Assembly: GCF_030269665.1 (NCBI RefSeq)
Contig: NZ_BSTS01000004.1
Span: 248,001 to 312,000 of the forward strand
DNA length: 64,000 nucleotides
DNA from: Actinomycetospora sp. NBRC 106375
GTDB taxonomy: Bacteria > Actinomycetota > Actinomycetes > Mycobacteriales > Pseudonocardiaceae
Direction of reading: 5' to 3'
Position numbers and translations under genes: made by a program
Shown here: positions 1 to 28,414 of the stretch, piece by piece
How the letters are laid out: each line of letters begins with the position of its first letter
Position numbering within the stretch: position 1 is the stretch's first letter
The notes under the pieces: generated by a model
Database searches by the model: none
Told to the model about the DNA's origin: nothing
The model's input: only the letters and a program-made list of their open reading frames with translations

Positions 1-882
1 GACGGGCATGTCCTCGGCGAACCCGTCGCCCAGCGCCTCGCGGCGCACCAGCAACGCCGCGCTGGGCACGTAGGCCACCCGAGACCGGGCGGTCACGGGT
101 GCCGGACGGGCACCGAGGTCCAGGCTCGACCGCCGCTCCTCGTAGCGGGCCACGGCGTGTCGCGCGAGCGAGGATGTGGCGATCCTGGCGTCAGACGCCA
201 GCAAAGCCGCATCGCTCGAACACCCGGGTGCACGCCACGCCACGATGCGGGGGGCGGCGAGGGCGACGGCGGGGTCGGCGAGGTGCCCGAGCAGCGGCGC
301 GAGCCAGCCGGGTTCCGGGACGACGTCGGAGTCGAGGAACGCGACGAGCGCGCCGGACGCCGCGGCGGCGCCGGTGTTGCGGGCGGCGGCGGGGCCGCGG
401 GACGTCGCGTGGCGCACGACGCGCGCGCCGAACGCCGCCCGCTCCGTCGCCGCGGGGTCGGCGGAGCCGTCGTCGACGACGACCACCTCGCCGAGCCCCG
501 GGGCCGTGGCGCGCAGCGCGTCGAGCAGGCGGGCGAGCTCGGCGGGGCGGTCACGCACCGGGACGACCACCGAGACGTCGGCCGGCGACGGCGCGTCGGG
601 ATGGGTCGGCTCGGGGTGCGCGACGCCCGCGTCGGTGAGCAGACGCGCGAGGGCCGCGGAGGTGGCGTCGGTGACGACGAGCCGGGCGTCGGGCGCGATC
701 CCGGCGGGTCCGGCGAGACGCCCGTACGCCGCCGGCGACAGGTGCAGCACGCGCGGCGGCGAGCCCCCGACGAGCGTGCGCCCGCCGTCGACGCGCAGGA
801 CCCGGCGGTCGAGGACGACGGTCCAGCCGTGCGGCGGTCGGGTGGGCCGCGCGGACGCCCGGGCGGCGGTCGAGGTGGCGAT
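1..882 (-). CDS. mftF: Mycofactocin glycosyltransferase MftF-like, 3' end cut by window edge
   Basis: Family 2 glycosyltransferase. MftF-type enzymes add the oligoglucose chain to premycofactocin. After an N-terminal region (about residues 1-95) that resembles the MftF lead domain, the GT-A fold begins with VSVVVPVRDRPAEL and continues through VVVDDGSADP and the metal/sugar site AFLDSDVVPEPGW. The conserved ARYEERRSSLDLG and RVAYVPSAALLVRREALG stretches follow, and the C-terminal part lies outside the window. A palindromic repeat at 157-223 is read in frame just before ARYEERRSS and adds about 22 residues. No ATG, GTG or TTG occurs in this frame between the upstream gene and the first conserved block. 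The given start is an ATC at 882 and is provisional; a GTG at 750 would remove conserved sequence. The neighbours MftE and two FadH/OYE flavoproteins support the assignment. GT2 identity is firm; the MftF name rests on motifs and context. Confidence 0.8.
   Translation of the reverse strand, partial: MATSTAARASARPTRPPHGWTVVLDRRVLRVDGGRTLVGGSPPRVLHLSPAAYGRLAGPAGIAPDARLVVTDATSAALARLLTDAGVAHPEPTHPDAPSPADVSVVVPVRDRPAELARLLDALRATAPGLGEVVVVDDGSADPAATERAAFGARVVRHATSRGPAAARNTGAAAASGALVAFLDSDVVPEPGWLAPLLGHLADPAVALAAPRIVAWRAPGCSSDAALLASDARIATSSLARHAVARYEERRSSLDLGARPAPVTARSRVAYVPSAALLVRREALGDGFAEDMPV
157..223. repeat. Palindromic repeat family A, copy 1 (inside mftF-like CDS)
   Basis: A 67-bp sequence starting GTGTCGCGCGAGCGAGGATG. 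Its centre holds the inverted repeat TGGCGTC..GACGCCA, and outer arms (TGTGGCGATCC against GCAAAGCCGCA; CGAGCGA against TCGCTCG) extend the imperfect hairpin. A second copy lies at 39327-39393 between genes. This copy sits within a coding region and keeps the frame open on the minus strand. Confidence 0.85.
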
Positions 883-937
883 GGCGGGCGAGTCTAGGTA
901 TCCCGACGCCGCCGGGCAGCGACCGAGGACACGCTCC

Positions 938-1369
938 TCAGGCCGCGACCACCGACTTCGTGACCTGGCTCAGCGCGACCGGGCGCTCCGGCGAGCCCTC
1001 GAGACTCGCCGTCACCGTCACGAAGGCGAGCTCGCGGGCCCGCTTGGCGAGCCTGCCGACCACGCGCACACGCCGGCCCGCGGGCGCCGGGCGGAGGTAC
1101 TGGGTCGAGATCTGGTGGGTCACGGCGTGCTGGGCGGGCGTGAGCGTCGGGAGCACGGCCAGGTAGCCCGCGAGCTCGATCGCGGCGCCGAGCGCGGCCG
1201 CGTGCAGGGTCGCCGCGGGCGTGACGGCGATCCCGGAGACGGGCAGGGCGACACCGTCCAGAGGCGCGTGGGGATCGACGAACTCGACGCCCAGCGCGTC
1301 GGGCAGCGCGACCGCGAGGGCGGCCTCCGCGCGGGCCAGCAGATCGTCGCCGGTGAGCAGTCCGGTCAT
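938..1369 (-). CDS. PaaI/YiiD-like hotdog-fold thioesterase domain protein
   Basis: A 143-residue protein that looks like a single hotdog fold of the PaaI/DUF4442 type. It has a helix around AAALGAAIELAGYLAV, then strands VTHQISTQYLRPAPAG, RRVRVVGRLAKRARELAFV and ASLEGSPERPVALSQVTKSV. Members hydrolyse acyl-CoA thioesters or bind CoA-like ligands; the substrate cannot be told from the sequence. The ATG at 1369 is chosen because the fold starts soon after it. The gene lies head to head with an ATP-grasp gene (start 1446), so the 76 bp between them should hold two promoters. Its link to the surrounding mycofactocin genes is positional only. Confidence 0.7.
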   Translation of the reverse strand: MTGLLTGDDLLARAEAALAVALPDALGVEFVDPHAPLDGVALPVSGIAVTPAATLHAAALGAAIELAGYLAVLPTLTPAQHAVTHQISTQYLRPAPAGRRVRVVGRLAKRARELAFVTVTASLEGSPERPVALSQVTKSVVAA

Positions 1370-1445
1370 GTCACCCGAAGGTCCTCCCCGTCCCCGGCCG
1401 GCCGGTGAACGTGGCGAGGACGCCCGCCGACGGGACCATGAGGGA

Positions 1446-2321
1446 ATGCCGCGCGTCGCCCTGGCCACCAGCCGTGAGGTCCCCGGTCTCCTCGACGACG
1501 AGGGCCTCCTGCTCCGCGACCGCCTGCGCGCGCGGGGTCTCGACGCCGGGCCCGCGGTCTGGGACGACCCGGAGGTCGCCTGGGACGCCGTCGACCTCGT
1601 CCTCGTCCGCTCGACCTGGGACTACGCGCTGCGCCGGACCGCGTTCCTCGCGTGGGCCGACGAGGTCGCGGGCCGGACCCGGCTGTACAACCCGCCGGCC
1701 GTGCTCGCCTGGACCACCGACAAGCACTACCTCCTCGAGCTGGCTGACGCGGGGCTGCCGGTGGTGCCGTCGGCGATCGTGGAGCCGGGGGGCGACCCCG
1801 ACGGCCACCCGTTCCGCGCCGTCGAGCACGTCGTGAAGCCGTGCGTGTCGGCCGGTTCGAAGGACACCCTGCGCTGCGGCGCGGACGAGACGGCGCGCTC
1901 GGCCGGGCACGTCCGCAGGCTGCTGGACGCCGGGCGTCCCGTGCTCGTGCAGCCCTACCTGCCCGCCGTGGACGAGGTGGGCGAGACGGCGGTCGTCGCG
2001 TTCGACGGCGTCGCGTCCCACGCCGTGCGCAAGGGCGCGCTGCTGACGCGCGGCGCCGGTCTCGTCGACGGGCTCTTCGCCGCGGAGGACATCACCGCGC
2101 GGGACCCGTCGCCCGCCGAGACGGACGTGGCGGCCCGCGTCCTCGACCACGTGACCGCGCACCTGGGCGCGGCGCCGCTCTACGCCCGCGTCGACCTGCT
2201 GCCCGGCGCCGACGGCCCGCTGGTGCTCGAGGTCGAGCTGGCCGAGCCGTCGCTGTTCCTCGGGCACGCGGAGGGCGCCGCGGACCGGCTGGCGGCGGCG
2301 GTGGCGCAGCGGCTCAGGTGA
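1446..2321 (+). CDS. ATP-grasp domain protein (RimK/glutathione synthetase-like)
   Basis: A 291-residue ATP-grasp ligase candidate. The N-terminal third contains DLVLVRSTWDYALRR, typical of a stand-alone actinobacterial ATP-grasp family. The ATP-binding part has HVVKPCVSAGSKDT, PVLVQPYLPAVDEVGE, and the metal-binding end LYARVDLLPGADGP followed by VLEVELAEPSLFLGHA. Such enzymes couple a carboxylate to an amine or thiol through an acyl phosphate; the substrate is unknown. The ATG at 1446 follows GACCATGAGGGA. The 3' end overlaps the convergent creatininase-family gene by 8 bp. Confidence 0.75.
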   Translation: MPRVALATSREVPGLLDDEGLLLRDRLRARGLDAGPAVWDDPEVAWDAVDLVLVRSTWDYALRRTAFLAWADEVAGRTRLYNPPAVLAWTTDKHYLLELADAGLPVVPSAIVEPGGDPDGHPFRAVEHVVKPCVSAGSKDTLRCGADETARSAGHVRRLLDAGRPVLVQPYLPAVDEVGETAVVAFDGVASHAVRKGALLTRGAGLVDGLFAAEDITARDPSPAETDVAARVLDHVTAHLGAAPLYARVDLLPGADGPLVLEVELAEPSLFLGHAEGAADRLAAAVAQRLR

Positions 2322-2991
2322 GCCGGCCGGTCGCCTCGTCCACCGTCCAGTCGGCGACGGCGCCGGCGAGCGCGGCGACCATCACCGCCACGGACTCGGC
2401 GCCCTCGCCGTCCGTGGCCCCCGTCGGGTCGCCGAGCACGCCCGACGGGCTCACGTCGCGCACCGACCCGGCCGTGATCGCCGGCATCAGCTCGCGCAGC
2501 GGCGCCGTGTTGCCGGGCGCGGCGAGGTCCTCGCGGACGTCGCCGGGCGCGAGCGAGAGCATCACCGCGGTCTCGTGGCGCCCCGCGTGCGCGTCGGCGC
2601 CCGGCACGCCGCAGGCGAACCAGGCGACGTCGCGGCCCTCCGCGCGCAGCATCGGCACGGCGACCCGCAGCGCGCCGACGTTGCCGCCGTGCCCGTTGAC
2701 CAGCACCAGGCGGCGCGCGAAACGGCACGCGGAGCGGCCGAGCTCGACGATCACCGCGGCGAGTGTCTCGGTGCCGATCGACACGGTGCCGGGGAAGCCC
2801 TCGTGCTCCCCGGAGGCGCCGTAGGGCAGCGCCGGGGCGGTCGGGAAGCCGCTGCGGGCCGCGACGGTGGCGGCGACCGTCGTGTCGGTGCCGAGCGGGA
2901 GGTGCGGTCCGTGCTGCTCGGTGGCCCCGACCGGCACCACCAGCACCGCCAGGTCCTCGCACTCCGCCCACCGCGCCCCCGCGATCTCCAC
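2314..2991 (-). CDS. mftE: Creatininase-family peptidase, mycofactocin MftE
   Basis: A 225-residue creatinine amidohydrolase-fold metalloprotein. MftE cleaves the C-terminal Val-Tyr part of MftA after MftC has modified it, giving the AHDP intermediate. Family signatures are VVPVGATEQHGPHLPLGTDT, LPYGASGEHEGFPGTVSIG, VLVNGHGGNVGALR and AHAGRHETAVMLSL; their E, H and D residues ligate the divalent metals. The GTG at 2991 is preferred; an earlier in-frame GTG at 3045 would put a perfect palindrome (3001-3050) inside the N-terminus. The gene lies downstream of two FadH/OYE genes on the same strand. The mftABC core is about 17 kb away, so the pathway is split across the window. Confidence 0.82.
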   Translation of the reverse strand: MEIAGARWAECEDLAVLVVPVGATEQHGPHLPLGTDTTVAATVAARSGFPTAPALPYGASGEHEGFPGTVSIGTETLAAVIVELGRSACRFARRLVLVNGHGGNVGALRVAVPMLRAEGRDVAWFACGVPGADAHAGRHETAVMLSLAPGDVREDLAAPGNTAPLRELMPAITAGSVRDVSPSGVLGDPTGATDGEGAESVAVMVAALAGAVADWTVDEATGRLT

Positions 2992-3000
2992 GCCGCCGAG

Positions 3001-3050
3001 GGTATGTGAGCGAACTTCGGTGCTATAGCACCGAAGTTCGCTCACGTACC
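3001..3050. repeat. Palindrome family C, copy 1 (near-perfect, loop-free)
   Basis: A 50-bp palindrome with 25-bp arms meeting at a CTATAG centre. The inner 20 bp of each arm (GTGAGCGAACTTCGGTGCTA) are perfectly complementary, and there is one T/G mismatch further out. It overlaps the end of the upstream flavoprotein gene and lies just before the mftE start. It shares GTGAGC...GCTCAC ends and a TA centre with 15121-15164. Confidence 0.9.
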
Positions 3051-4975
3051 GAGGCGCCCGCCGCCGAGCCCTCGCGGACGGCGGCGTCGATGTCGCGGGG
3101 GGCGACGCAGTCGCCGACGCGGACGACGGGGACGTCCGTGTCCAGCGACGGCACCACCGGCGACGGCGGGCCGGCGTGGACGACCCAGTCGGTCTCGACC
3201 GGCATCACCTCGCCCGTGAGGTGGTGCAGCACGTCCAGGACCAGCCCCTCCCGCGCGGCGAGCACCACCCGGTCGGTGAGCTCCGCGATCCCGAGATCGA
3301 ACGCCCGTCGGCGCCAGCGCTCGCGGTCCAGGGTCGGGGCGAGGTCGCCGGCGGCGACGAGCGCCGAGGTCACCGTCGTCACCGCCGCGCCCCGGCGGGC
3401 GAGGAGCTCCGCGGTCGAGGTCGCCGCGTGCCCCCGCCCCGCATCCACGACGAGCACCCGCCCGGACGGTGCCACGCGGCCGGCGAGGACGTCGGTGACG
3501 TCGACGACGCGCGCGAGCCCCGCGGCCCAGCCGGGCAGGGCCGGGCGAGCGCCGGTCGCCAGCACCACCGCGTCGACACCGGCGACCTCGGTGACCTCGT
3601 GGCGCAGCCGCACCGTGACGCCCGCCGCGCGCGCCTCGTACGCCAGGTCGGCGACGACGTTCGCCAGCTCCCGGCGTTCCGGCGCCCGCGCGGCGAGGGC
3701 CAGTTGCCCGCCGAGCACGTCGGAGCGTTCGGCGAGCGTCACCGTGTGCCCGTCCCGCGCCGCGGCGACCGCCGCCGCGAGACCCGCCGGACCCCCGCCG
3801 ACGACGAGGACGCGCGCCGCGAACGGGGACTTCGTGCGCCGAGAAGCAGCGAGATACCCGTTCGCTGCGACCCCCTCGCGCCCCGCCGCCGGGTTCACCG
3901 CGCACCCCAGACGCTGGTTCACGCCGACGCGCGCGATGCACTCCTGGTTGCACCCGAGGCACCGGCGCACACGCTCGCCCCGCAGGGCCTTGCCCGCGAA
4001 CTCCGGGTCCGCGATCTGCCCGCGCACGACGCCGACGAGGTCGCACGACCCCGAGCGCACCGCGTCGAGCGCCTGCTCCGGCGTCGTGAAGCGCCCGACA
4101 CCGATCACGGGCACCGACACTGCCGCCCGCACCGCCGACGGCACGTGTGACGCGTACCCCGCGGGCACGCCCATCGGGGGCTCGATCAGCGGCAGGGTGC
4201 GGGTGGCGACGCCGACGGCGGTGTTGACGTAGTCGACGAGCGGCTCGACCTCCCGGGCCACCGCGGCGGCGTCGGACGCCGAGAGCCCGCCGGGGAAGCC
4301 CTCGTCCCCCTGCAGGCGCACGCCCACCACCCGGTCGGGCCCGACCGCCGCGCGCACCGCCGACAGCACCGCGCGCAGGAACGGCAGCGCCTCCGGCGGG
4401 GCGGCACGCAGCGCAGCGGAGCTGCCGCGCGGAACGCGGGCTTCGGCCGAGAACACCTGGCGGATCAGCGAGGCCTGCGAGCACTGCACCTCGACGCCGT
4501 CGAGGCCCCCGGCCGCCACGTGCGCCGCGACCAGGCCGAACCCGGCGACCAGGCGCTCCCGACCGGACGCCGACAGCGGCCGCGGCACCTCCCGGAACAT
4601 CGGGTCCGGCTCGTCGTCGACGCCGTCGATCGGCGCGCGCGAGTAGAGCGACGACGACTGCCCGCCGTTGTGCCCGAGCTGCGCGAGCACCAGCGCGCCG
4701 TGCGCGTGCACGGCGTCCGCGATCGCCCGGTAGCCGGGCACGACGGCGGGGTCGGTGCCGTCGACGAGCTTCTCGTAGGGCCGGTCGGCGGGGTCGACCG
4801 ACTGCTCCTCGGTGATCACCAGGCCCGCCCCGCCCGCCGCGCGGGCCCCGTAGTACGCGGCGTGCTGGGGGGTGGGCCGGCGGGCCACCGCCGCGTTGGT
4901 GAGGTGGGCGGGGAAGACGAGCCGGTTCCGCGCCGCGAGCGGCCCGAGCCGGACCGGGTCCCCGAGACCGGTCAC
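3023..4975 (-). CDS. Mycofactocin-associated FadH/OYE family flavoprotein (4Fe-4S, FMN, FAD)
   Basis: A 650-residue protein of the 2,4-dienoyl-CoA reductase/NADH:flavin oxidoreductase type. An OYE-like TIM barrel (about 1-330; FPAHLTNAAV, VLAQLGHNGGQSSS, DGVEVQCSQASLI, GVRLQGDEGFPGG) is followed by the four-Cys cluster RCLGCNQECIARVGVNQRLGC. A two-dinucleotide-fold region comes next (RVLVVGGGPAGLAAAVAA). Between cluster and FAD domain (residues about 369-386) it carries an in-frame palindromic repeat encoding ANGYLAASRRTKSPFA. The GTG start at 4975 overlaps the stop of the upstream paralogue (GTGA), so the two are translationally coupled. Two such flavoproteins are a known accessory of mycofactocin loci; their electron acceptor is unproven. 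The last residues run into palindrome 3001-3050. Confidence 0.85.
   Translation of the reverse strand: MTGLGDPVRLGPLAARNRLVFPAHLTNAAVARRPTPQHAAYYGARAAGGAGLVITEEQSVDPADRPYEKLVDGTDPAVVPGYRAIADAVHAHGALVLAQLGHNGGQSSSLYSRAPIDGVDDEPDPMFREVPRPLSASGRERLVAGFGLVAAHVAAGGLDGVEVQCSQASLIRQVFSAEARVPRGSSAALRAAPPEALPFLRAVLSAVRAAVGPDRVVGVRLQGDEGFPGGLSASDAAAVAREVEPLVDYVNTAVGVATRTLPLIEPPMGVPAGYASHVPSAVRAAVSVPVIGVGRFTTPEQALDAVRSGSCDLVGVVRGQIADPEFAGKALRGERVRRCLGCNQECIARVGVNQRLGCAVNPAAGREGVAANGYLAASRRTKSPFAARVLVVGGGPAGLAAAVAAARDGHTVTLAERSDVLGGQLALAARAPERRELANVVADLAYEARAAGVTVRLRHEVTEVAGVDAVVLATGARPALPGWAAGLARVVDVTDVLAGRVAPSGRVLVVDAGRGHAATSTAELLARRGAAVTTVTSALVAAGDLAPTLDRERWRRRAFDLGIAELTDRVVLAAREGLVLDVLHHLTGEVMPVETDWVVHAGPPSPVVPSLDTDVPVVRVGDCVAPRDIDAAVREGSAAGASVRERTSVL
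3819..3872. repeat. Palindromic repeat family B, copy 1 (inside flavoprotein CDS)
   Basis: A 54-bp sequence reading, on the minus strand, GCAGCGAACGGGTATCTCGC then TGCTTCT.. and ..CCCCGTTCGC. It closely matches 60492-60541 and 35223-35270, which lie between genes. It contains the short inverted repeat GCAGCGA..TCGCTGC. Here it is translated in frame within the linker between two domains. Confidence 0.88.
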
Positions 4976-6825
4976 GACAGCAGCTCCCGCGCCGCCGCCC
5001 GGCCCTCGCGCACCGCCTCCGCGACGGTCCGCGGGGCGACGGCGTCGCCGACGACGTGCAGGTCGGGGCGTTCCGGCGGGTCCGCCAGGGCACGCCGCGG
5101 CCCGGCGTCGACGAGCACCGCGGCGGGCAGGGTCGTCGTCGCGCCGGTGACGACGTCGGCGACCGTGACCGACGACCCCGACCACGCCGACACCCGCGCC
5201 TCCGTCACCCGCCGCACCTCGGCCCGGGCCAGGCGGGCCTGGGCCTCGACGAGGTCGCCGGTGCGCGCGAGGCCGGGACCGACGAGCACGCCGGGCGCCA
5301 CGATCGCGACCTCCCGCCCCTCGGCCGCCAGCCGCTCCGCCAGGGCGACCGCGGCGCCGTCGCCGAGCGGGTCGTCGACGACCACGGCGCCGGGCGGGAG
5401 CCCGTCGCGCAGGGCCGCGGCGATCGGCGTGCCGCGCCCCGGGCGGTCGACGCCGCCGGTCGCGAGCAGGACCCGCCCGTCGGCGGGCACGTCGGCGACC
5501 GTCCCCAGCGCGACCGTCACCCCCAGCGCCGCGAGCTCTCCGGAGTACCAGGCGACCAGGTCGGCCAAGCGCTCGCGCCCCGGCAGACCCGCCACGAGCC
5601 GCAGCAGGCCCCCGACGGCGTCGTCGCGCTCCACCAGCCGCACGGCGCACCCGCCGCGCGCGAGCGTCCGGGCGCCCTCGAGACCGGCCGGCCCCGCCCC
5701 GACGACGAGCACCGGGTCCACCCGCCGGGGCACGACCCGCTCGGGGACCTCGGGCGCGGCGACCGTGCAGGAGATGCGCGGGTTGCGGACGTCGCGCACG
5801 CGGCACTGCTGGTTGGTCAGCACGCACGGGCGCACGGGCGAGCCCGCGCGGACCAGGGCGACGAGGTCGGCGTCGGCGAGCTGGGCGCGGGTCATCTCGA
5901 CGAGGTCGGCGTCGCCGGACTCCAGGACGTCCAGCGCGAACACCGGGTCGACGACGCTGCCCGCGAGCACCGTCGCCACCCCGTCCGTGCGCAGGGAACG
6001 GCAGGTCGGCCGCAGGAAGCCCGGGGCGGTGTGGGCGTCGGGCCGGGTCGCGCCGACCGAGAGCGCCGAGCCGCGCACGGGGACGACGAGATCGACGAGC
6101 CCGCCCACCCGCGCCAGCACGGACGACGCGTCCGCCGGCGTGATCCCCGCCCACGGCGCCAGCTCGTCGACCCCGAGGCGCAGCCCGACGACCGCGTCGG
6201 GGCCCGCCGCGGCCCGCACGGCGGTGAGCACCTCGACGAGCAGGCGCGCCCGGTCGGCGCCGTGGGCGTCGTCGCGGTGGTTGGTCAGCCCCGACAGGAA
6301 CTGCCGCAGCAGCGCGTGCTGCCCGGCCGCCACCTCGACGCCGTCGCAGCCGGCGGCCACCGCGGCGCCCGCGGCGGAGGCGAACCCGTCGACGACCGCC
6401 GCGATCCCGTCCGCCGAGAGCGCCGCCGGCACCTCCCCGCTCGCCGGGTCGGGCACCGGGGAGGGCGCGTGCAGCGGCCCGCGCGTGTACGCCGACGAGC
6501 CCTGGCCGCCCGCGTGCCCGAGGCCCGCGAGCACGAGGGTGCCGTACGGCCGGCAGGCGTCGGCGACGTCGCGCCACCCGTCGGCGCAGGCCGCGGCCAG
6601 CGGCGCGTCCTCGTAGGGGTGGTCGTCGGCGACGACGGACGCGACCTCGGTGACGACGACGCCGGCGCCGCCGGCCGCGCGCGCCCGGTAGTGCGCGACG
6701 TGGTCCCGGGACAGCGCGCGGGGACGAGCGGGGTCGGCCAGGTGCGTGACGTGCGGGCCGAACAGCACACGGCTGGGCGCGGTGCGCCCGCCGAGCACGA
6801 CGGGGTCGCCCAGCACGCCGCGCAC
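4972..6825 (-). CDS. Second mycofactocin-associated FadH/OYE family flavoprotein
   Basis: A 617-residue paralogue of the next gene downstream. The TIM barrel includes VLFGPHVTHLADP, VLAGLGHAGGQGSSAYTRG, DGVEVAAGQHALLRQFLSG and VVGLRLGVDELAP. The cluster region reads RPCVLTNQQC...ISC, and the FAD domain starts PVLVVGAGPAGLEGAR. The second of the four usual Fe-S cysteines is Thr here (CVLTNQQC, compared with CLGCNQEC in the paralogue), so the cluster may be altered or lost. The GTG at 6825 is chosen because VRGVLGDPVVLGG starts the barrel; another GTG lies at 6816. Upstream is a divergent Hsp70-like gene. It is coupled to the downstream gene by a GTGA overlap. Confidence 0.82.
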   Translation of the reverse strand: MRGVLGDPVVLGGRTAPSRVLFGPHVTHLADPARPRALSRDHVAHYRARAAGGAGVVVTEVASVVADDHPYEDAPLAAACADGWRDVADACRPYGTLVLAGLGHAGGQGSSAYTRGPLHAPSPVPDPASGEVPAALSADGIAAVVDGFASAAGAAVAAGCDGVEVAAGQHALLRQFLSGLTNHRDDAHGADRARLLVEVLTAVRAAAGPDAVVGLRLGVDELAPWAGITPADASSVLARVGGLVDLVVPVRGSALSVGATRPDAHTAPGFLRPTCRSLRTDGVATVLAGSVVDPVFALDVLESGDADLVEMTRAQLADADLVALVRAGSPVRPCVLTNQQCRVRDVRNPRISCTVAAPEVPERVVPRRVDPVLVVGAGPAGLEGARTLARGGCAVRLVERDDAVGGLLRLVAGLPGRERLADLVAWYSGELAALGVTVALGTVADVPADGRVLLATGGVDRPGRGTPIAAALRDGLPPGAVVVDDPLGDGAAVALAERLAAEGREVAIVAPGVLVGPGLARTGDLVEAQARLARAEVRRVTEARVSAWSGSSVTVADVVTGATTTLPAAVLVDAGPRRALADPPERPDLHVVGDAVAPRTVAEAVREGRAAARELLS

Positions 6826-6970
6826 GGTAGTCGTCCGGCGCGGGACGGTCGGGACGACCACAGATCGGGGGCGCGCACCCACCCGGGGTGGGGTCTGCCC
6901 CACTCCCGGCGCGACCGCGGCGCACGAGGCTTCTGGACACCCCGCCCGACCAGCGTCCACGGAGCCCGCG

Positions 6971-8524
6971 ATGACCTACCACCTCGGTGTCGACCTCGGC
7001 ACCAGCAGCACGACCGCTGCCGTCCACCGGGCCGGTCGTGTCGGTGTCGTCGGTCTCGGCGAGCACAGCGCCGCCATGCCGTCGGTCCTGGTCTGGAGAC
7101 CGGAGGGCCCACCGCTCGTCGGTGACGCGGCGGTGCGCCACGCCGCGGCCGGCGGGGCCGGCGCCGCCAGCGGGATGCGGGCGCGCCTGACCGACCCGAT
7201 GCCGATGACGGTCGACGGCGCGCCGATGGCCGCGAGCGCGCTGCTCGGCGTGCTGCTGCGCCGCGTGGTGGACCGCGTCGCCGAGCGCGAGGGCGGCGCG
7301 CCGGCGGGCATCGTCCTGACGCACCCGGCGACCTGGGGCGCCCCGGAGCGCGACGCCTTCGCGGTCGTCGCCGACACCCTCGGCCTCGGCAAGGTCGCGC
7401 TGGTCAGCGAGCCGGAGGCCGTCGCCCGTCAGTACGCGGCGCAGGACGGCCTGCGCGACGGGGCGGTGCTCGCCGTGGTCGGCGTCGGCGGCGACAGCCT
7501 CGACGTCACGGTCCTCGTGCACCGCGAGGGCGGGTTCACGATCCTCGGGCGCCCGGAGTCGCGCCCGCACCCCGTCGGCGCGCAGCCGGGCGACGACATC
7601 GTCGTCGCCGGGCTCACGCGCAGCCTCGCGAGCGCGGGGCTCACGGCGGCCGACCTCGACACCGTCATCCTCGCCGGGTGGTCGACGCGGATGGGCACGG
7701 CCGCGGCCGCGCTCGCCGATGCGGTGGGCCGCCCGGTCGCCGTCGACCCCGAGCCCGAGCACGCCGTCGCCCTCGGTGCGGCCCGCCTGGCCGCCCGCTT
7801 CCGGGAGGACGGCGCGACCCGGATGGTCAGCCTGTCGTCGAGCACGCCGGCCCGGGTGCCCGCCCGCCCGTCCGCCTCCACCGCCGACCGCGTCCCGAGC
7901 GGCCCGATCACCGCGCCCCCGCGCCCCGTCACGAACCCCACCCCCGTCTCCGGCCCGATCTCCCGCCCGGGCTCCGGCCCGATCTCCGCCCCCACCCCGA
8001 CCCGGGTCGCGGCGCCGGTCGCGCTCGGCACGGACGCCGGGCACGCCCGCGGCGCGCGGCCCGGCCGTCGCGGGCTGGCGACGGGTCTGGCCGCCGCGGT
8101 GCTGGCCCTCGGCGCCCTCGGCGGCGGGGCGATCGCCCTGGCGAGTGCCGCGGCCCCGGCCGTGGCCGCACCGGGTCCCGTCATCACCGTCCCGCCGCCA
8201 CCGCCGGCGAGCGAGACCCCGACCACCACGACGACCACCCACACGCCCACCGTCTACGTCGCCGAGACCGCGCCGACCACGACGACCACCACCACCACGC
8301 GACGCACGACGACCTCCACGTCCACGCCGCGCCTCGACCCGCCGCGCACCCGCGACACCAGCAGCTCTGCCGGCGACCACGGCACCACCGACGGCCACGG
8401 CACGGGCACCGACGGCACGAGCACGGGCACCAGCACCGGCACGAGCACGGGGACCAGCACCGGCACGACCGACGGCGGCACCGGGTCGAGCACCGGCACC
8501 TCGACGGGCACGTCGGGGTGGTGA
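6971..8524 (+). CDS. Membrane-anchored Hsp70/actin-like ATPase-domain protein with Thr-rich tail
   Basis: A 517-residue protein. The N-terminal ~285 residues follow the Hsp70 actin-like ATPase: phosphate-1 loop GVDLGTSSTTAAVHRAG, ILTHPATWGAPERDAF, VALVSEPEAVARQYAAQ, phosphate-2-like VVGVGGDSLDVTVLV, and an adenosine-type LAGWSTRMG. The barrel is shorter than in DnaK and there is no substrate-binding domain. A Pro/Ser-rich linker leads to one membrane helix (about 365-395, TGLAAAVLALGALGGGAIAL). The outer tail is Thr-rich (TTTTTTT) and ends in tandem GTST repeats. Proteins of this design are common in Pseudonocardiaceae, but their role is unknown; sensing or wall-linked signalling is only a guess. 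The ATG at 6971 begins the ATPase fold. Confidence 0.75.
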   Translation: MTYHLGVDLGTSSTTAAVHRAGRVGVVGLGEHSAAMPSVLVWRPEGPPLVGDAAVRHAAAGGAGAASGMRARLTDPMPMTVDGAPMAASALLGVLLRRVVDRVAEREGGAPAGIVLTHPATWGAPERDAFAVVADTLGLGKVALVSEPEAVARQYAAQDGLRDGAVLAVVGVGGDSLDVTVLVHREGGFTILGRPESRPHPVGAQPGDDIVVAGLTRSLASAGLTAADLDTVILAGWSTRMGTAAAALADAVGRPVAVDPEPEHAVALGAARLAARFREDGATRMVSLSSSTPARVPARPSASTADRVPSGPITAPPRPVTNPTPVSGPISRPGSGPISAPTPTRVAAPVALGTDAGHARGARPGRRGLATGLAAAVLALGALGGGAIALASAAAPAVAAPGPVITVPPPPPASETPTTTTTTHTPTVYVAETAPTTTTTTTTRRTTTSTSTPRLDPPRTRDTSSSAGDHGTTDGHGTGTDGTSTGTSTGTSTGTSTGTTDGGTGSSTGTSTGTSGW

Positions 8525-10229: not shown

Positions 10230-10262
10230 TCTCCCCCGTGACGGGGGGTTGTTCGGGGGAGA
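10230..10262. promoter_or_regulatory. Inverted repeat in the prk/response-regulator divergent promoter
   Basis: Perfect 9-bp arms TCTCCCCCG (10230-10238) and CGGGGGAGA (10254-10262) flank 15 bp, with a smaller CCCCCGTGACGGGGG palindrome sharing the left arm. It lies between the divergent starts 10180 and 10283. It is a plausible binding site for the adjacent response regulator or the LysR protein; this is inference. Confidence 0.4.
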
Positions 10263-10945: not shown

Positions 10946-13654
<2,709 letters not shown>

Positions 13655-17853: not shown

Positions 17854-17863
17854 CCCGGCGCGC

Positions 17864-18190: not shown

Positions 18191-18288
18191 GCAGGGTCAA
18201 ACGAGTTGATCACGAAACCGGATCGGAAGTGGGTACAGACGGCCCGCTCTGTCTCAGCAGCTGACGGAAAGGGCTCGGCGGATCGGAG

Positions 18289-20528: not shown

Positions 20529-20851
20529 GCGGTGGTGTCCCGTCGTTGGATCGTGCCTGCCTGCGCGAGGCCGGCCAGGGCCTTGAGGTACTGCTCCCGC
20601 TGGTGTGCAGGAACCTCGGCGGCCTCGAGGGCGCCGTGGACGTCGGGGTGGTCGGCCAGCGACTCGACGGCCCGGACGAGCGGCCGGGTCTTGAGGAACG
20701 ACAGCCGCCGGGTGTGGAAGTCGTAGACGAGGGCGCCGAAGGACTCCGGGCGCACCGACACCGAACCGGAGATCCGGTACGGGAGGTCGGCGTCGAAGTC
20801 GTCGACGCCGGCGGGAGCCGTCGGTCCGGCCCCCGCCGCCGTCGTCGACAT
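20525..20851 (-). CDS. mftB: Mycofactocin precursor-binding chaperone MftB
   Basis: A 108-residue RiPP recognition element protein that binds the MftA leader and delivers it to MftC. The core YRISGSVSVRPESFGALVYD and RRLSFLKTRPLVRAVESLAD fits the PqqD-like winged-helix fold. It starts at an ATG sharing one base with the mftA stop and ends overlapping mftC, so all three genes are translationally coupled. Confidence 0.93.
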   Translation of the reverse strand: MSTTAAGAGPTAPAGVDDFDADLPYRISGSVSVRPESFGALVYDFHTRRLSFLKTRPLVRAVESLADHPDVHGALEAAEVPAHQREQYLKALAGLAQAGTIQRRDTTA

Positions 20852-20925
20852 CAGTAGACGCCGCACATGCCGTCGATCGAGACCTCTTCCACGAGGGTCT
20901 CCTCGACGAGCTCGTTCTCGTCCAT
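20851..20925 (-). CDS. mftA: Mycofactocin precursor peptide MftA
   Basis: A 24-residue precursor. It is Glu/Asp-rich in the leader part and ends with the diagnostic IDGMCGVY, whose last two residues (Val-Tyr) become the redox cofactor core. The leader VEETLVEEVSIDG is the expected MftB-binding segment. It is shorter than many MftA peptides (about 30 residues), but nothing essential is missing. It lies divergently from mftR across a 145-bp intergenic region. Confidence 0.95.
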   Translation of the reverse strand: MDENELVEETLVEEVSIDGMCGVY

Positions 20926-21070: not shown

Positions 21071-21658
21071 GTGACGACGAGAAGTGCGCGCCGGGTGCCC
21101 GTGGCCCAGCGCCTCGAGCACGTCGCCCTCGAGCTGTTCGCGGCCCAGGGCTTCGACGAGACCACGGTCGACGAGCTCGCCGTCGCGGGCGGCGTCGGGC
21201 GACGGACGTTCTTCCGGTACTTCCCGACCAAGCTCGACGTCGTGCTCGGCGAGCTGGACGAAGGGCTGGCCGGGCTCGTCGTCTCGCTGGCCGACCAGGA
21301 CGGCGACGACCCCGTGGCCGCGGCCCGCGCCGCCTTCCTCGCCGTGAACCGCTACGCCGACGCCGAGCTGCCCGCGCTGCGCCGGCGTCTCGGGCTGATC
21401 GAGGAGGTGCCCGAGCTCGCCGCGCGGGCGACGGTGCGCTACCGCGACTGGGAGAGTGCGGTCGCCGCGGACGCCGCGCGCCGCTGGGGGGACGATCCCG
21501 GGTCGCTGCGCGCGCAGGTCTTCGGCCGGGCCGTCGTGGCCTCGATGCGCGCGGTGTTCAGCGCGTGGCACGGGCGCGCGGACGCCGACGGCGCGGTGCT
21601 CGGTGTCCTCGTCGAGGAGGCGTTCGACCAGCTCGGGCGGGGGTTCGCGACCCGGTGA
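21071..21658 (+). CDS. mftR: TetR-family mycofactocin regulator MftR
   Basis: A 195-residue TetR regulator. The HTH reads QRLEHVALELFAAQGFDETTV and GGVGRRTFFRYFPTKLDVV, including the RTFFRYF form usual in MftR proteins. The C-terminal ligand domain has WESAVAADAARRWG. MftR represses mft genes and is released by acyl-CoA in mycobacteria. Two adjacent in-frame GTGs (21068, 21071) are possible starts. The stop overlaps the GntR gene start by GTGA. Confidence 0.88.
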   Translation: MTTRSARRVPVAQRLEHVALELFAAQGFDETTVDELAVAGGVGRRTFFRYFPTKLDVVLGELDEGLAGLVVSLADQDGDDPVAAARAAFLAVNRYADAELPALRRRLGLIEEVPELAARATVRYRDWESAVAADAARRWGDDPGSLRAQVFGRAVVASMRAVFSAWHGRADADGAVLGVLVEEAFDQLGRGFATR

Positions 21659-23184: not shown

Positions 23185-23251
23185 CGCGCCGGATCCCGAG
23201 GGGACCGTCATGAGCGACGGTCCCTCGGTTGGACCCGACGAGAGGACAGCC

Positions 23252-24544
23252 ATGCAGGTTGACGAGCTGCTCAAGCCGTTCCCGATCAAGGAGTTCCACC
23301 CCTTCCCGCGGGCGCTCCTCGGGCCCGGCTCGCACGAGATGATCGGGCCGGAGGCGCTGAAGCTCGGCTTCAAGAAGACCCTGATCATGACGTCGGGCCT
23401 GCGCGGCACCGACATCGTGCACAAGATCAGCGAGTCCATGAAGTACCACGGGATCGACACCGTCATCTACGACAAGGTCGAGTCGAATCCCAAGGACTAC
23501 AACTCGATGGACGCCGTGAAGATGTACCAGGAGAACTCCTGTGACAGCTTCGTGTCCATCGGTGGCGGCTCCTCGCACGACGCCTGCAAGGGCGCCCGCG
23601 TCTCGGTGGCCCACGACGGCCGCAACGTCAACGAGTTCGAGGGCTTCAACAAGTCCGAGAACCCGAAGAACCCGCCGCACATCGCGGTGTCGACCACGGC
23701 CGGCACGGGCTCGGAGACGTCCTGGGCCTACGTCATCACCGACACCACGACGGACCCGAACAACCCGCACAAGTACGTCGCGTTCGACGACGCGTCGGTG
23801 ACCACGCTGGCCATCGACGACCCGGTGCTCTACTACGACTGCCCGATCGACTTCACCGCCCAGTGCGGCTTCGACGTCCTCGCGCACGCCTCCGAGCCCT
23901 ACGTCTCGCGCCTGAACTTCGAGCCGAGCCTCGGCAACGCGATCCGCGCCATCGAGCTCACCTCGCAGCACCTGCGCGAGGCCGTGTGGAACGGCCAGGA
24001 CCTGCCCGGCCGCGAGGGCATGATGTACGCGCAGTACATCGCCGCCCAGGCGTTCAACTCCGGTGGCCTCGGGATCATCCACTCGATCTCGCACGCGGTG
24101 TCGGCGTTCTACGACACCCACCACGGCCTGAACAACGCCGTCGCGCTCCCCCGCGTGTGGGCGTTCAACATGCCGGTCGCCTACAAGCGCTTCGCCCGGA
24201 TCGCCGAGGCCATGGGCGTGGACACCACGCACATGACCGACGTCCAGGCCGCCGAGGCCGCGCTCGCCGCGTCCATCCGTCTGCTGCGCGACGTGGGCAT
24301 CCCGGAGAAGTTCACCGACGTCACCCAGGACTCGTACTCGAAGAACCGTCTCGGTCAGGGCCCGACGAAGTTCTACGAGAACGAGAAGACCATCACGGGC
24401 AACGACGCCGACGTGGACCGCATCACCAACCACGTCCTCGGTGACGCCTGCACGCCGGGCAACCCCAAGGAGTGCACGTTCACGACCGTGCGCCCCGTCG
24501 TCGACCACTGCCTCAACGGCGACCTCGACGACCTGCTCAGCTGA
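23252..24544 (+). CDS. mno: NDMA-dependent methanol dehydrogenase (MNO/Mdo type)
   Basis: A 430-residue group III alcohol dehydrogenase. Its start region FPIKEFHPFPRALLGPGSHE matches the actinobacterial methanol:NDMA oxidoreductase family, decameric enzymes with tightly bound NADPH and Zn/Mg. Visible sites are SIGGGSSHDACKG (dinucleotide loop), STTAGTGSETS, and metal ligands in CGFDVLAHASEPYVS (Asp-x3-His), IIHSISHAV and THHGLNNAVALP. In mycobacteria and Amycolatopsis this enzyme needs mycofactocin to reoxidise its bound cofactor. The ATG at 23252 follows GAGAGGACAGCC. MoxR and VWA genes follow. It likely oxidises methanol and formaldehyde. Confidence 0.92.
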   Translation: MQVDELLKPFPIKEFHPFPRALLGPGSHEMIGPEALKLGFKKTLIMTSGLRGTDIVHKISESMKYHGIDTVIYDKVESNPKDYNSMDAVKMYQENSCDSFVSIGGGSSHDACKGARVSVAHDGRNVNEFEGFNKSENPKNPPHIAVSTTAGTGSETSWAYVITDTTTDPNNPHKYVAFDDASVTTLAIDDPVLYYDCPIDFTAQCGFDVLAHASEPYVSRLNFEPSLGNAIRAIELTSQHLREAVWNGQDLPGREGMMYAQYIAAQAFNSGGLGIIHSISHAVSAFYDTHHGLNNAVALPRVWAFNMPVAYKRFARIAEAMGVDTTHMTDVQAAEAALAASIRLLRDVGIPEKFTDVTQDSYSKNRLGQGPTKFYENEKTITGNDADVDRITNHVLGDACTPGNPKECTFTTVRPVVDHCLNGDLDDLLS

Positions 24545-24637: not shown

Positions 24638-25879
24638 GTGACCAGCACGGACACCTCCGCCCCCTTCGGTTCGGTCGAGGAGGTCATCGATGCGCTCGCG
24701 AAGCAGGGGTACATCGCCGACCGGCGCCTGGCCACGACGGTGTTCCTCCTGACGCGCCTCGAGAAGCCGCTGCTGCTCGAGGGGCCCGCCGGCGTCGGCA
24801 AGACGGAACTGGCCAAGATGCTGGCCCTCGCCACGGGCCGGCGCTTCCTGCGGCTGCAGTGCTACGAGGGCCAGGACGAGACCAAGGCCCTCTACGAGTG
24901 GGACTACGGCAAGCAGCTGCTCTACACCCAGATGCTCCGCGAGAAGATCGCCGAGATCGTGCAGGACGCTCCCGACATCAAGACGTCGGTCGAGCGGATC
25001 GCCGCCCAGGACAGCGTCTTCTTCTCCGAGGAGTTCCTCGCCGAGCGGCCCCTGATGGAGGCCATCCGCTCCGACGAGCCCGTCGTGCTGCTGATCGACG
25101 AGGTCGACCGCGCCGACGAGGCCCTCGAGGCGGTGCTCCTGGAGACCCTCGGCGAGTACCAGATCTCCGTGCCCGAGGTCGGCACGTTCGCGGCGCGCAA
25201 CGCGCCCTACGTCATCCTGACCAGCAACAACACGCGTGACCTGGCTGCCGCCCTGAAGCGTCGCTGCCTGCACCTGTTCCTCGACTACCCGAGCGCGGAG
25301 CGCGAGCTGGAGATCGTCCGGTCGAAGGACACCGGTCTGCCCGAGGCCGCCGCCCGCGAGCTGGTCGAGGTGGTCCGCGGACTGCGCGAGCTCGAGCTGC
25401 GCAAGGCCCCGAGCATCTCCGAGACGATCGACTGGGCCCGCACGCTCGCCGTGCTGGGCGTCGACGAGCTCTCGAGCTCGATCCTCTCCGACACCGTCAG
25501 CGTCGTGGTCAAGTACGACAAGGACGTCACCAAGGCCCTCGGCGCGCTGCCGAAGCTGGTCGACCCCAACGCCGAGATCGACGACCACGGTCACGGCCAC
25601 GGCCACGGTCATGGGCACGGCCACGACGAGGGGCACTCCGGCGGACCGGCCCCGACCACGTCGCGCCGCGTGCCCGACGACGACGAGGAGGACGGCCCCG
25701 ACGGGCGCTCCGTGCGGGCCGCGAAGGACCAGGAGGGCCGCCACGTCGGGCACTACGCCGCGGGCGTCGAGCAGAAGGAGAAGGCCCGCAACGGCGAGCT
25801 GGAGCCGGCGAAGCCCCGCAACGTGAGCTCGAGCCAGGGCAGCCGGTCGTTCGGCCTGGGCAAGAAGCGCGCTCTCTAG
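24638..25879 (+). CDS. MoxR-family AAA+ ATPase with His-rich metal-binding segment
   Basis: A 413-residue MoxR ATPase. The AAA core (about 1-300) has Walker A LLEGPAGVGKTELAKM, LQCYEGQDETKALYEWDYGK, Walker B VVLLIDEVDRADE and VILTSNNTRDL with KRRCLHLFL. After the core comes an alternating His-Gly stretch (DDHGHGHGHGHGHGHDEGH, about 312-330), then an acidic and basic tail. MoxR proteins work with VWA partners as chaperones that insert metals or cofactors. Here the partner is the next gene and the probable client is the methanol dehydrogenase just upstream (93 bp). The GTG at 24638 is preceded by AGGAAGG. Confidence 0.88.
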   Translation: MTSTDTSAPFGSVEEVIDALAKQGYIADRRLATTVFLLTRLEKPLLLEGPAGVGKTELAKMLALATGRRFLRLQCYEGQDETKALYEWDYGKQLLYTQMLREKIAEIVQDAPDIKTSVERIAAQDSVFFSEEFLAERPLMEAIRSDEPVVLLIDEVDRADEALEAVLLETLGEYQISVPEVGTFAARNAPYVILTSNNTRDLAAALKRRCLHLFLDYPSAERELEIVRSKDTGLPEAAARELVEVVRGLRELELRKAPSISETIDWARTLAVLGVDELSSSILSDTVSVVVKYDKDVTKALGALPKLVDPNAEIDDHGHGHGHGHGHGHDEGHSGGPAPTTSRRVPDDDEEDGPDGRSVRAAKDQEGRHVGHYAAGVEQKEKARNGELEPAKPRNVSSSQGSRSFGLGKKRAL

Positions 25880-25911
25880 GGACCGGCGAGCACCGAGAGG
25901 AGGCCCCCGGC

Positions 25912-27456
25912 ATGGAGGCCAGCATCCACCGGTTCGTCCGCCTGTTGCGCATCCGGCAGGTCCGGGTCTCCACCTCGGAGGTCCTCGACGCGATGCGCTG
26001 CGCGCGGGAGCCGGGCGTCCTCGCCGATCGCGAGACGCTCCGGGCGGCGCTGCGGGTCGCCCTGGTCAAGGACATCCGCGACGAGGCGACCTTCGACGAG
26101 ATCTTCGATGCGTACTTCGCGCTGGTGAAGATCGGCGACGAGGACCGCGGGCACGGCCACGGGCACGGGCACGAGGACCTCTCCGACGGCGGCGCGCTCG
26201 AGGAGTTCACGCTGTCCGAGGAGCCCGGCGAGACCCCGCAGCAGGGCCACGACCACGGCAAGCCGGTGTCGATCAAGGACTTCTTCGACCCGGAGGACCT
26301 CGCCGAGCAGTACAACCTGCACCAGGAGGCCAACAAGATCGATCTCGCGTCGATGACCGACGAGATCGTCTTCTCGAAGGACGGCGCCACCGACCAGATC
26401 GGCGCCCAGGACAAGGTGCAGATCGAGACCGACAGCCTGCACGGCGCCGGGCTGCCCGGCGACATCGCGGAGCAGGCCGGCACCAAGGTCGACGCCGACC
26501 TCACCGTCGCCCAGCAGGAGGCGCTGCTGGGCTGGCTGCAGGGTGTCGAGGACGGCATCGACGACGAGGGCGACGAGTCCGACGCGATGGCCCTGCGCCG
26601 CCGGCTGGCCGGGATGCTCGAGAACCTCCCCGAGGCGATCAAGCGCCACCTCGAGAAGCTCATGGAGATCGAGCAGCGCATCGTCGAGGGCGGTGACGGC
26701 GACGAGGAGGCCCACAAGGCCGAGGTCGACCGGGCCGAGGAGCACGAGCGCCAGCAGCTCGAGGACTCGCTGCGGCGGCTGGCCAAGACGCTGCACGGCG
26801 CCCTGACCCACAAGCGGCGCGAGTCCCCGCGCGGGCGCATCGACCCGGGCCGCACGATGCGCCGCAACATGCGCTTCGACGGCGTCCCGTTCCGCCCGGT
26901 CACCGTCGCGCGCGCCGAGGACAAGCCGCGCCTGGTGATCCTCGCCGACGTCTCGCTGTCGGTGCGGGCGACCGCCCGGTTCACGCTGCACCTCGTGCAC
27001 GGCCTGCAGGACATGTTCGGCCAGGTGCGCTCGTTCGCGTTCGTCGCCGACCTCCTCGAGGTCACCGACCTGTTCTCCGACCACACCGTGGAGGACGCCC
27101 TCGGGCTGATCTTCGGCGGCGACATGATCGACGTCGACGCCAACTCCGACTACGGCACGGCGTTCGGCACGTTCCTCGAGGACCACGGGTCGGCGGTCAA
27201 CCGGCGCTCGACGGTGATCGTGCTCGGCGACGGCCGGGGCAACGGCAACGACGCCAACATGGAGGCGTTCGCCGAGATCACCCGGCGGGCGCGCGAGACC
27301 ATCTGGCTGACGCCCGAGCCCCGCTACTCGTGGGGCCTGGGCTCCTGCGACCTGCCGCAGTACGCCGAGTTCGTCGATCGCATCCGGGTCGTCCGCGACC
27401 TCACGGGTCTCTCGGAGGTCAGCCACGACATGGCGGCGGAGATGATCGGGCGATGA
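25912..27456 (+). CDS. VWA (CoxE-like) domain protein with His-rich segment
   Basis: A 514-residue partner of the MoxR ATPase. The N-terminal helical region contains a His-Gly patch (RGHGHGHGHED, about 79-89) and QQGHDHGK, followed by a long charged helical part. The C-terminal VWA domain has the MIDAS motif LADVSLSV (DxSxS), then NRRSTVIVLGDGRGNGND and the CoxE-like ending LPQYAEFVDRIRVVRDLTGL. Paired with MoxR, it probably escorts metal to, or remodels, the methanol dehydrogenase. It starts 33 bp after the moxR stop with GAGAGGAGG upstream, and is followed 20 bp later by the methyltransferase gene. Confidence 0.87.
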   Translation: MEASIHRFVRLLRIRQVRVSTSEVLDAMRCAREPGVLADRETLRAALRVALVKDIRDEATFDEIFDAYFALVKIGDEDRGHGHGHGHEDLSDGGALEEFTLSEEPGETPQQGHDHGKPVSIKDFFDPEDLAEQYNLHQEANKIDLASMTDEIVFSKDGATDQIGAQDKVQIETDSLHGAGLPGDIAEQAGTKVDADLTVAQQEALLGWLQGVEDGIDDEGDESDAMALRRRLAGMLENLPEAIKRHLEKLMEIEQRIVEGGDGDEEAHKAEVDRAEEHERQQLEDSLRRLAKTLHGALTHKRRESPRGRIDPGRTMRRNMRFDGVPFRPVTVARAEDKPRLVILADVSLSVRATARFTLHLVHGLQDMFGQVRSFAFVADLLEVTDLFSDHTVEDALGLIFGGDMIDVDANSDYGTAFGTFLEDHGSAVNRRSTVIVLGDGRGNGNDANMEAFAEITRRARETIWLTPEPRYSWGLGSCDLPQYAEFVDRIRVVRDLTGLSEVSHDMAAEMIGR

Positions 27457-27475
27457 GGGTGGGCCGGAGCCGACC

Positions 27476-28414
27476 GTGACCGGGCTGGCCGACACACCCG
27501 TGCCCGCCGGGGCCGTCCGGATCGACCCCCTGGCCCCGTCCCACCCCGGCCGGTGGGAGGACGACCACGTCGTCGTCTGCCACGTCGACCGCGCGCCGGT
27601 GCCGGTCCGGCTGGTCGCCGCCCGGCCGCCGGAGCGGGTCACCGACCACTTCGAGGTGCACCGGCCCGGCGAGCGCCTGCTCGTGCTGCACCGGCTGCGC
27701 CCCGACGAGCTCGACGACGACATCGCCGGGCTCATCGCCCGCGAGCTCACCGGTGTCGTGACCTCGGCCGGCGACTTCGAGCGGGTGTTCACCGGCGTCG
27801 TGCGCTCGACCGTCAGCGACCCGCTGACCGCGTGGTCGACGTTCTACGCCAACAGCCTCGCCGTGCTGCGCTCACCGCCGCACGACGTGGACCCGGACGT
27901 GGCTCCGGAGTCGTCGCTGGCCGCGTTCGCGCCGGTGCACGAGCGGGCGCTCGTCGAGATCCGCGGACGCACCGTGCTCGACGTCGGCTCGTGCTTCGGC
28001 TTCCTGCCGCTGCGGCTGGCGCAGGAGGGCTTCGACGTCGTCGCGACCGACCACACGCCCGGCACGATGGGCCTGCTCGGTGCCGTGGCCCGCCGGCGCG
28101 GGCAGGCGGTGCGCACCGTCGTCGCGGACGCCCGGACGCTGCCCGCCCGGACCGGCGCGGTCGACACGGTGACCGCCGTGCACCTCCTCGAGCACCTGCC
28201 CCCGGACGACACGGTCCGGGTGCTCGACGAGATGCTGCGCGTCGCCCGGCGCCGCGTCGTGGTCGCCGTGCCCTACGAGGACGTCCCGGAACCCGTGTAC
28301 GGGCACCTGAGGACCTTCGACCACGGCGTCCTGCACGCCCTCGGCGAGCGCACCGGCCACGCCTTCCGCGTCAGCGACGACCACGGGGGCTGGCTGGTGG
28401 TCGACGCGGCCTGA
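27476..28414 (+). CDS. mftM: Mycofactocin oligosaccharide methyltransferase MftM-like
   Basis: A 312-residue SAM-dependent methyltransferase. The N-terminal ~140 residues are family-specific (FERVFTGVVRSTVSDPLTAW). The class I fold then starts LVEIRGRTVLDVGSCFGFLPL, with VVATDHTPGTMG and AVHLLEHLPPDDTVRVLDEM. MftM methylates the second glucose of the mycofactocin glycan in Mycolicibacterium, where it lies near the methanol dehydrogenase locus, as here. The GTG at 27476 is 20 bp from the VWA gene, consistent with one mno-moxR-vwa-mftM operon. The name rests on context and overall architecture. Confidence 0.8.
   Translation: MTGLADTPVPAGAVRIDPLAPSHPGRWEDDHVVVCHVDRAPVPVRLVAARPPERVTDHFEVHRPGERLLVLHRLRPDELDDDIAGLIARELTGVVTSAGDFERVFTGVVRSTVSDPLTAWSTFYANSLAVLRSPPHDVDPDVAPESSLAAFAPVHERALVEIRGRTVLDVGSCFGFLPLRLAQEGFDVVATDHTPGTMGLLGAVARRRGQAVRTVVADARTLPARTGAVDTVTAVHLLEHLPPDDTVRVLDEMLRVARRRVVVAVPYEDVPEPVYGHLRTFDHGVLHALGERTGHAFRVSDDHGGWLVVDAA

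Follow-up and report, generated by a model that had tools for sequence, protein, structure and literature searches.

A Calvin-cycle cassette nested in the mycofactocin/methanol locus of Actinomycetospora

In Actinomycetospora sp. NBRC 106375, a cassette of Calvin-cycle (cbb) genes interrupts the mycofactocin/methanol locus. The window analysed here is a stretch of 64,000 nucleotides of this genome, which is designated G000 and whose contigs bear C-numbers (G000:C4:248001-312000). On the minus strand, mftA-mftB-mftC are followed by a block of ~12.5 kb and then by OYE1-OYE2-mftE and mftF, the OYE genes encoding FadH/old yellow enzyme (OYE) oxidoreductases of the mycofactocin system. The plus strand carries mftR and a GntR regulator and, past a minus-strand short-chain dehydrogenase/reductase gene, mdo-MadB-MadC-mftM, of which mdo encodes a methanol dehydrogenase dependent on N,N-dimethyl-4-nitrosoaniline (NDMA) or mycofactocin. 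Within the block, cbbY-prk diverge from genes for a response regulator (RR) and a histidine kinase (HK) followed by cbbL-cbbS-cbbX-cbbR, beyond which lie fba and small variable genes. The cassette is thereby confirmed to split mftABC from OYE1-OYE2-mftE-mftF (Table 1), and the physical linkage of cbb genes to the mycofactocin/methanol locus that a sequence-only reading had reported is borne out, with the cassette nested between mftC and OYE1.

Genes were called from codon usage and scanned with NCBIfam/TIGR and Pfam models, scores being given as bits/curated cut-off. All the gene types named in the earlier reading (mft, OYE, mdo with its partners and the cbb set) were recovered in these scans, several below cut-off: mftF, mftR, OYE1, OYE2, CbbX, the MadB-type ATPase and the MadC-type VWA protein are best matches that fall short of it. 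The mftF gene extends beyond the left edge of the window and encodes 496 amino acids (aa) once the left flank is included. With mftD on contig C7 (672.8/470.85) and mftA, B, C, E and F in the locus, mftA-mftF are all in the genome. The MadR-MadS-ErcA-like genes at 39406-42838, past the first 28,414 bp, probably belong to the methanol module.

The RuBisCO system of the cassette, with cbbL, cbbS and the CbbX activase present together, is of the red type. CbbL has 5nv3 and 1bwv, which we take to be red-type RuBisCOs, among its best solved relatives, and the protein is 93% identical to that of Actinomycetospora chibensis and 95% to that of A. lutea. The P-loops of prk and cbbX are present, as are the RuBisCO motifs that we assume to be the catalytic ones. 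At the level of codon substitution, the cassette genes are shown to be under purifying selection, the NG86 dN/dS ratios for eight of them against G003, G006 and G007 being 0.10-0.48, with dS that may be saturated. To call the block a 'complete' CO2-fixation island, as had been done, is too strong: it consists of prk, cbbL, cbbS, cbbX, cbbY, cbbR and fba, so that of the Calvin-cycle enzymes it holds prk, RuBisCO and fba (plus cbbY) and none of the others.

Table 1. Features of the mycofactocin/methanol locus and the nested cassette (window coordinates; scores as bits/curated cut-off where two numbers are given)
Feature	Position	Strand	Evidence
mftF, mycofactocin glycosyltransferase, 5' part	1..750	-	TIGR03965 226.8/280 on in-window 249 aa
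mftE	2314..2991	-	TIGR03964 292/172
OYE2, mycofactocin-system FadH/OYE oxidoreductase 2	3023..4975	-	TIGR03997 700.4/793.2
OYE1, mycofactocin-system FadH/OYE oxidoreductase 1; left border of block	4972..6861	-	TIGR03996 604.9/627.9
Hsp70-like protein, variable passenger of block	6971..8524	+	PF00012 64 bits
cbbY-like HAD phosphatase	8553..9242	-	phmmer to solved CbbY 4uar/4uas, 159 bits
prk, phosphoribulokinase	9239..10180	-	NF005655 376.5/236; P-loop present
Dyad CCCCCGTGACGGGGG	10233..10247	.	divergent prk/RR promoter region
NarL-type RR of cassette	10283..10945	+	NarL model 146.8/250; MadR 142/300
GAF-domain sensor HK of cassette	10983..12194	+	PF13185, PF07730, PF02518; MadS 71/500
cbbL, RuBisCO large subunit	12230..13654	+	NF003252 757.8/438; catalytic motifs present
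cbbS, RuBisCO small subunit	13665..14135	+	PF00101 131.9/27
cbbX, red-type RuBisCO activase	14122..15114	+	TIGR02880 448.9/459.3; solved CbbX 398 bits
cbbR-like LysR regulator	15176..16051	+	NF045990 CbbR 118.9/450, second-best LysR model
fba, class I fructose-bisphosphate aldolase	16048..17061	-	NF033379 400/250
Small variable genes of block	17305-19125		
mftC, radical SAM maturase; right border of block	19314..20528	-	TIGR03962 651.7/265
mftB	20525..20851	-	TIGR03967 104.6/33
mftA precursor, C-terminus IDGMCGVY	20851..20925	-	TIGR03969 52.9/25
mftR-like TetR regulator	21095..21658	+	TIGR03968 165.1/224.9
mdo, NDMA (mycofactocin)-dependent methanol dehydrogenase	23252..24544	+	TIGR04266 675/625
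MadB-type AAA (MoxR) ATPase	24638..25879	+	NF047784 385.6/475
MadC-type VWA protein	25912..27456	+	NF047783 267.3/600; PF05762
mftM, mycofactocin methyltransferase	27476..28414	+	NF041255 329.1/200
MadR response regulator	39406..40083	-	NF047785 359.1/300
MadS sensor kinase	40080..41486	-	NF047786 563.4/500
ErcA-like iron alcohol dehydrogenase	41492..42838	-	NF041833 458.6/550

The position of the cassette is conserved in the genus. Among 18 Actinomycetospora genomes, cbbL is found in 12, and mdo was matched in all 18 and above the family cut-off in 16, the copies in G012 and G014 being split or shortened. In all nine genomes in which a single contig carries OYE1, cbbL, mftC and mdo, the cassette lies between OYE1 and mftC, with an OYE1-mftC gap of 8.3-24.0 kb; G001 and G012 agree as far as their contigs extend. 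An fba match is present in eight of the ten cassettes that extend that far (not in G003 and G010), and the Hsp70-like gene is at the same place in G000, G001, G003, G004, G007, G008 and G012, and by gene call in G015, and is unmatched in G006 and G010. The cbb-negative genomes have gaps of 93 bp (G005), 92 bp (G002), 61 bp (G013), 1283 bp, where a single small serine-rich gene lies (G017), and 4193 bp with an 871-aa gene (G009); G011, which is 59% complete, could not be assessed for the gap, nor G014 for the cassette site. The serine-rich gene of G017 resembles g17 by eye and was considered as the footprint of a lost cassette, yet it has no blastp match to g17 at 1e-3. Additional DNA of ~8 kb, separating OYE1 from the Hsp70-like gene, was considered as a possible hydrogenase part of the island; in G007 and G015, the two genomes whose genes were listed, it reads as a nonribosomal peptide synthetase-like gene and three others, with no hydrogenase.

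Beyond the genus, a survey of 390 genomes of the family found cbbL in 60 (E <= 1e-150) and mdo in 109 (E <= 1e-120). Both genes occur in 23 genomes outside Actinomycetospora; they share a contig in eight of these, always more than 370 kb apart, and are on separate contigs in the other 15, where distance cannot be read. In one such genome, G277, whose genus (g30) appears to be Pseudonocardia-like, mftABC-OYE1-OYE2-mftE are unbroken and the same cbb cassette is ~680 kb distant. From a named collection, the best 80 of 588 cbbL-relative stretches were also compared, 49 of them with the full 10 kb on both sides. Genes of the mft or mdo type are near cbbL in two of the 80, both Actinomycetospora, and the other 78 are without them in the available flanks. 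Linkage of cbb and mdo is thus confined to Actinomycetospora among the genomes and loci searched. Cassette sequences from Actinomycetospora cluster together (FastTree support 0.979), adjoining cassettes of other family genomes, while the five cbb-negative genomes are one clade within the genus (support 1.0) in trees of the flanking genes, with a sister group that differs between left-arm and right-arm trees. A single early gain followed by one clean loss is the simplest history; gain with transfer inside the genus also fits.

The regulators next to cbbL are the cassette's own. A matching RR and HK accompany prk/cbbL in G277 and in other actinomycetes, the RR being found at >=55% identity in 25 of the 80 named loci (two of them Actinomycetospora); therefore, the pair belongs to the cassette. 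The possibility that these genes are MadRS was rejected, as they score 142/300 and 71/500 bits on the MadR and MadS models, on which the 39-41 kb pair reaches 359/300 and 563/500. The dyad CCCCCGTGACGGGGG upstream of the RR gene is exact and is the sole occurrence in the window at <=2 mismatches, where 2.3 would be expected by chance. Upstream regions were aligned from starts inferred by tblastn, with 130 bp taken before the RR gene. Of 44 stretches, 21 have dyads of this form, where mononucleotide shuffles give an expectation of 1.4, an excess that is descriptive, as the pattern was picked after the alignment had been viewed. They are found in 10 of 12 genus genomes (not in G010, and cut off in G007 by the short upstream stretch), in six of seven Pseudonocardia-like stretches and, among the 25 named loci, in the two Actinomycetospora again and in three of the 23 others. 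Since the dyad also occurs in cassettes remote from mdo, it belongs to the cassette. No operator common to the cbb and mdo promoters was found in a comparison of two aligned upstream regions and one pattern, in which no motif search was made.

Genes for the oxidation of formaldehyde and formate, which had not been seen near the locus and which the sequence-only reading proposed to seek in the rest of the genome, were found there. S-(hydroxymethyl)mycothiol dehydrogenase (MscR) is encoded at C4:158180, ~89 kb left of the window (641 bits; cut-off 512.9), and scores above cut-off in 15 of the 18 genomes (not G009, G011 and G012). C41 encodes an NAD-linked formate dehydrogenase of the Fds type, whose alpha subunit scores 888 bits against a cut-off of 666, and this gene is the only TIGR01591 match above cut-off among the 18 genomes. 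Two further formate dehydrogenase-like genes contain an in-frame UGA, probably specifying selenocysteine: the C23 gene reaches 1473.7 bits over the region that follows the UGA (cut-off 1400), and that on C10 scores 627 bits, under the cut-off of 666, as do its counterparts in all 18 genomes (584-633 bits). Mycofactocin is reported as the electron acceptor of methanol dehydrogenase (PMC9214030), and its reoxidation is ascribed to MftG (PMC11778925). Full oxidation of methanol to CO2 would thus be possible in principle, with or without the cassette. The hexulose phosphate synthase (hps) of the ribulose monophosphate pathway is far under cut-off in G000 (best 27.5/200 bits), and because of this, refixation through RuBisCO is a plausible route of C1 assimilation in this genome. 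Elsewhere in the genus, hps exceeds the cut-off in five of the 18 genomes, namely the cbb-positive G001 and G003 and the cbb-negative G005, G009 and G013. As separate observations, UGA-containing formate dehydrogenase-like genes of both kinds (L193:5489-8719 and L187:6715-8688) occur in all 18 Actinomycetospora genomes, and uroporphyrinogen-decarboxylase-type methyltransferase-like genes, recognized by eye, lie near the Fds operon (L186:9908-13000, G000:C41), with which they make up a possible second C1 locus.

Other electron donors could feed the cassette. An [NiFe] hydrogenase scores above cut-off in 10 of the 18 genomes, not counting a weak fragment in G011; it is present in nine of the 12 cbb-positive versus one of the six cbb-negative genomes (Fisher p = 0.043, uncorrected for kinship). 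The large subunit in G000, with 1058 bits to 5aa5, which is named HofG, is encoded on contig C1 and not on the cbb contig. Form I carbon monoxide dehydrogenase (CODH) is above cut-off in eight of the 18 genomes, six of 12 cbb-positive versus two of six cbb-negative (p = 0.64), and not in G000; G008 carries this enzyme together with a hydrogenase. A coxL-like gene lying 2-5 kb beyond the left edge of the window was rejected as form I CODH on its score (665/991 on TIGR02416) and its motif AYRGAGR, which we take to be that of form II CODH. Four CODH-like genes stand beside mftF (L197:13257-18088, G000:C4:241257-246088; large subunit scanned, others recognized by eye), and 13 of the 18 genomes have a CODH-family large subunit no more than 50 kb from mdo. 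Five Actinomycetospora are listed as potential autotrophs, with H2 suggested, in PMC12999727.

Growth of actinomycetes on methanol in connection with RuBisCO is already known and is not new. Methanol growth with RuBisCO activity is described for several mycobacteria and strain JC1 (PMC11303327, citing Park et al. 2003, 2010), so that, as in the window, Mycobacterium sp. JC1 and other mycobacteria combine an NDMA-type methanol dehydrogenase with RuBisCO in one actinomycete. JC1 also uses the xylulose monophosphate pathway, and excerpts of PMC11303327 make no mention of cbb genes inside an mft/mdo locus in mycobacteria. The mno locus of M. smegmatis, with RR msmeg_6236, sensor kinase 6238, alcohol dehydrogenase 6239 and methanol dehydrogenase 6242 (PMC11303327), has its likeness in the MadR, MadS, ErcA-like alcohol dehydrogenase and mdo of the window, although here MadRS lie ~15 kb from mdo, with the Calvin-cycle cassette on the other side; from gene order, MadRS would correspond to MnoSR. 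The cassette itself resembles form IE cassettes of Pseudonocardia, Mycobacterium, Actinomadura and others, in which prk, RR-HK, cbbL-cbbS-cbbX, cbbR and fba recur in varying order, but mft/mdo neighbours are found only in Actinomycetospora among the best 80 of 588. Form IE is assigned to most actinomycete RbcL in the list of PMC12999727, with five Actinomycetospora counted. No report of cbb genes inside an mft locus was found among the matches listed from open-licence PMC articles, a weak negative. What is new is the position of the cassette, every gene type being already known.

Several further features of the locus were noted. A palindromic element of ~75 bp lies in frame inside mftF (window 153-225), adding 20-25 residues; it is lacking in G006 and the cbb-negative relatives and varies in other relatives. 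A second copy is in the 3' part of mftF (G000:C4:247602-247677), and the genome holds at least ~40 more, 80-97% identical (40 of 1747 candidates scored); the seven others that were examined are intergenic or border on genes, as judged from gene calls. An ARAGORN call of tRNA-Asp across the cbbS/cbbX junction (14115-14189) is probably false, with no Rfam matches in the window. On the right side, a protein with a nitric oxide synthase oxygenase domain (30107-31471; PF02898, 466 bits) is encoded near a flavohemoprotein-like reductase (33833-35206; 126/432 bits), and a second MadB-type AAA ATPase (51221-52117; 259.5/475 bits) is distant from mdo.

The best explanation, which we judge about as apt to prove right as wrong, is that a self-contained Calvin-cycle cassette with its own regulators sits in the methanol locus, methanol being one possible feed to which it is not hard-wired. 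Mdo would oxidize methanol to formaldehyde with transfer of electrons to mycofactocin, MscR would convert formaldehyde to formate, yielding NADH, and the formate dehydrogenases would release CO2, roles that are taken from the named families. The cassette would be switched on by its GAF sensor kinase/RR and CbbR, and CO2 could be fixed with any available reductant, that is, H2 via the HofG-like hydrogenase or methanol and formate via the C1 chain. A dedicated island for autotrophic methylotrophy, with joint use and co-induction of the two gene sets and refixation by RuBisCO of methanol-derived CO2, is unlikely, although it would account for the conserved position of the cassette, the encoded chain from methanol to CO2 and the failure of hps to exceed the cut-off in 10 of 12 cbb-positive genomes, and has a parallel in mycobacterial RuBisCO activity on methanol (PMC11303327). 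It is opposed by the presence of mdo and its operon in cbb-negative species too (mdo in 18/18, cbbL in 12/18) and by the sharing of dyad and regulators with Pseudonocardia-like cassettes whose mdo is distant or on another contig. Moreover, the dyad recurs at no second place in the window, MadRS form a separate pair on the methanol side, two cbb-positive genomes (G001, G003) also carry hps, and G000 has an [NiFe] hydrogenase. Although the nesting is genuine and recurs across the genus, the whole region is syntenic, so that position may be inertia and conserved synteny could be a sufficient explanation. The autotrophic methylotrophy first proposed for this locus is supported in part, by the encoded oxidation steps, and 'methanol-linked' exceeds the evidence.

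At the other extreme the neighbourhood would be a metabolically meaningless accident, the cassette serving chemolithoautotrophy on H2 (in some species CO) and methanol supplying energy only. The distribution of the hydrogenase, the HofG-like enzyme in G000, the form I CODH in half of the cbb-positive genomes and the proposal of H2 for Actinomycetospora (PMC12999727) all speak for this reading, which we nevertheless find doubtful: form I CODH does not follow cbb, the hydrogenase is on a contig separate from that of the cbb genes, and G007 and G016 are cbb-positive with neither enzyme above cut-off. These two genomes favour a methanol island and, together with G015, which also has no hydrogenase match, and the cbb-negative G002, which has both hydrogenase and form I CODH, weigh against the self-contained cassette as well. 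Since hydrogenase-free cbb-positive genomes exist, H2 cannot be the general donor. A tentative and rather improbable proposition is that methanol oxidation dependent on mycofactocin, acting by way of formate, would be the main driver of RuBisCO in part of the genus (G007 and G016 foremost), and that cbb and mdo would be co-expressed there. Use of the cassette for redox balance or CO2 recapture in heterotrophic growth, for which there is precedent in the recapture of sugar-derived CO2 by Ralstonia eutropha (PMC4486974), is very improbable.

Together, these genomes offer a natural comparison within one genus, in which the same methanol operon occurs with the CO2-fixation cassette at a single site or lacks it, and in which some cbb-positive species have neither hydrogenase nor form I CODH. 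The comparison makes both the metabolic meaning, if any, of the nesting and the feeding of RuBisCO by methanol or formate directly testable.

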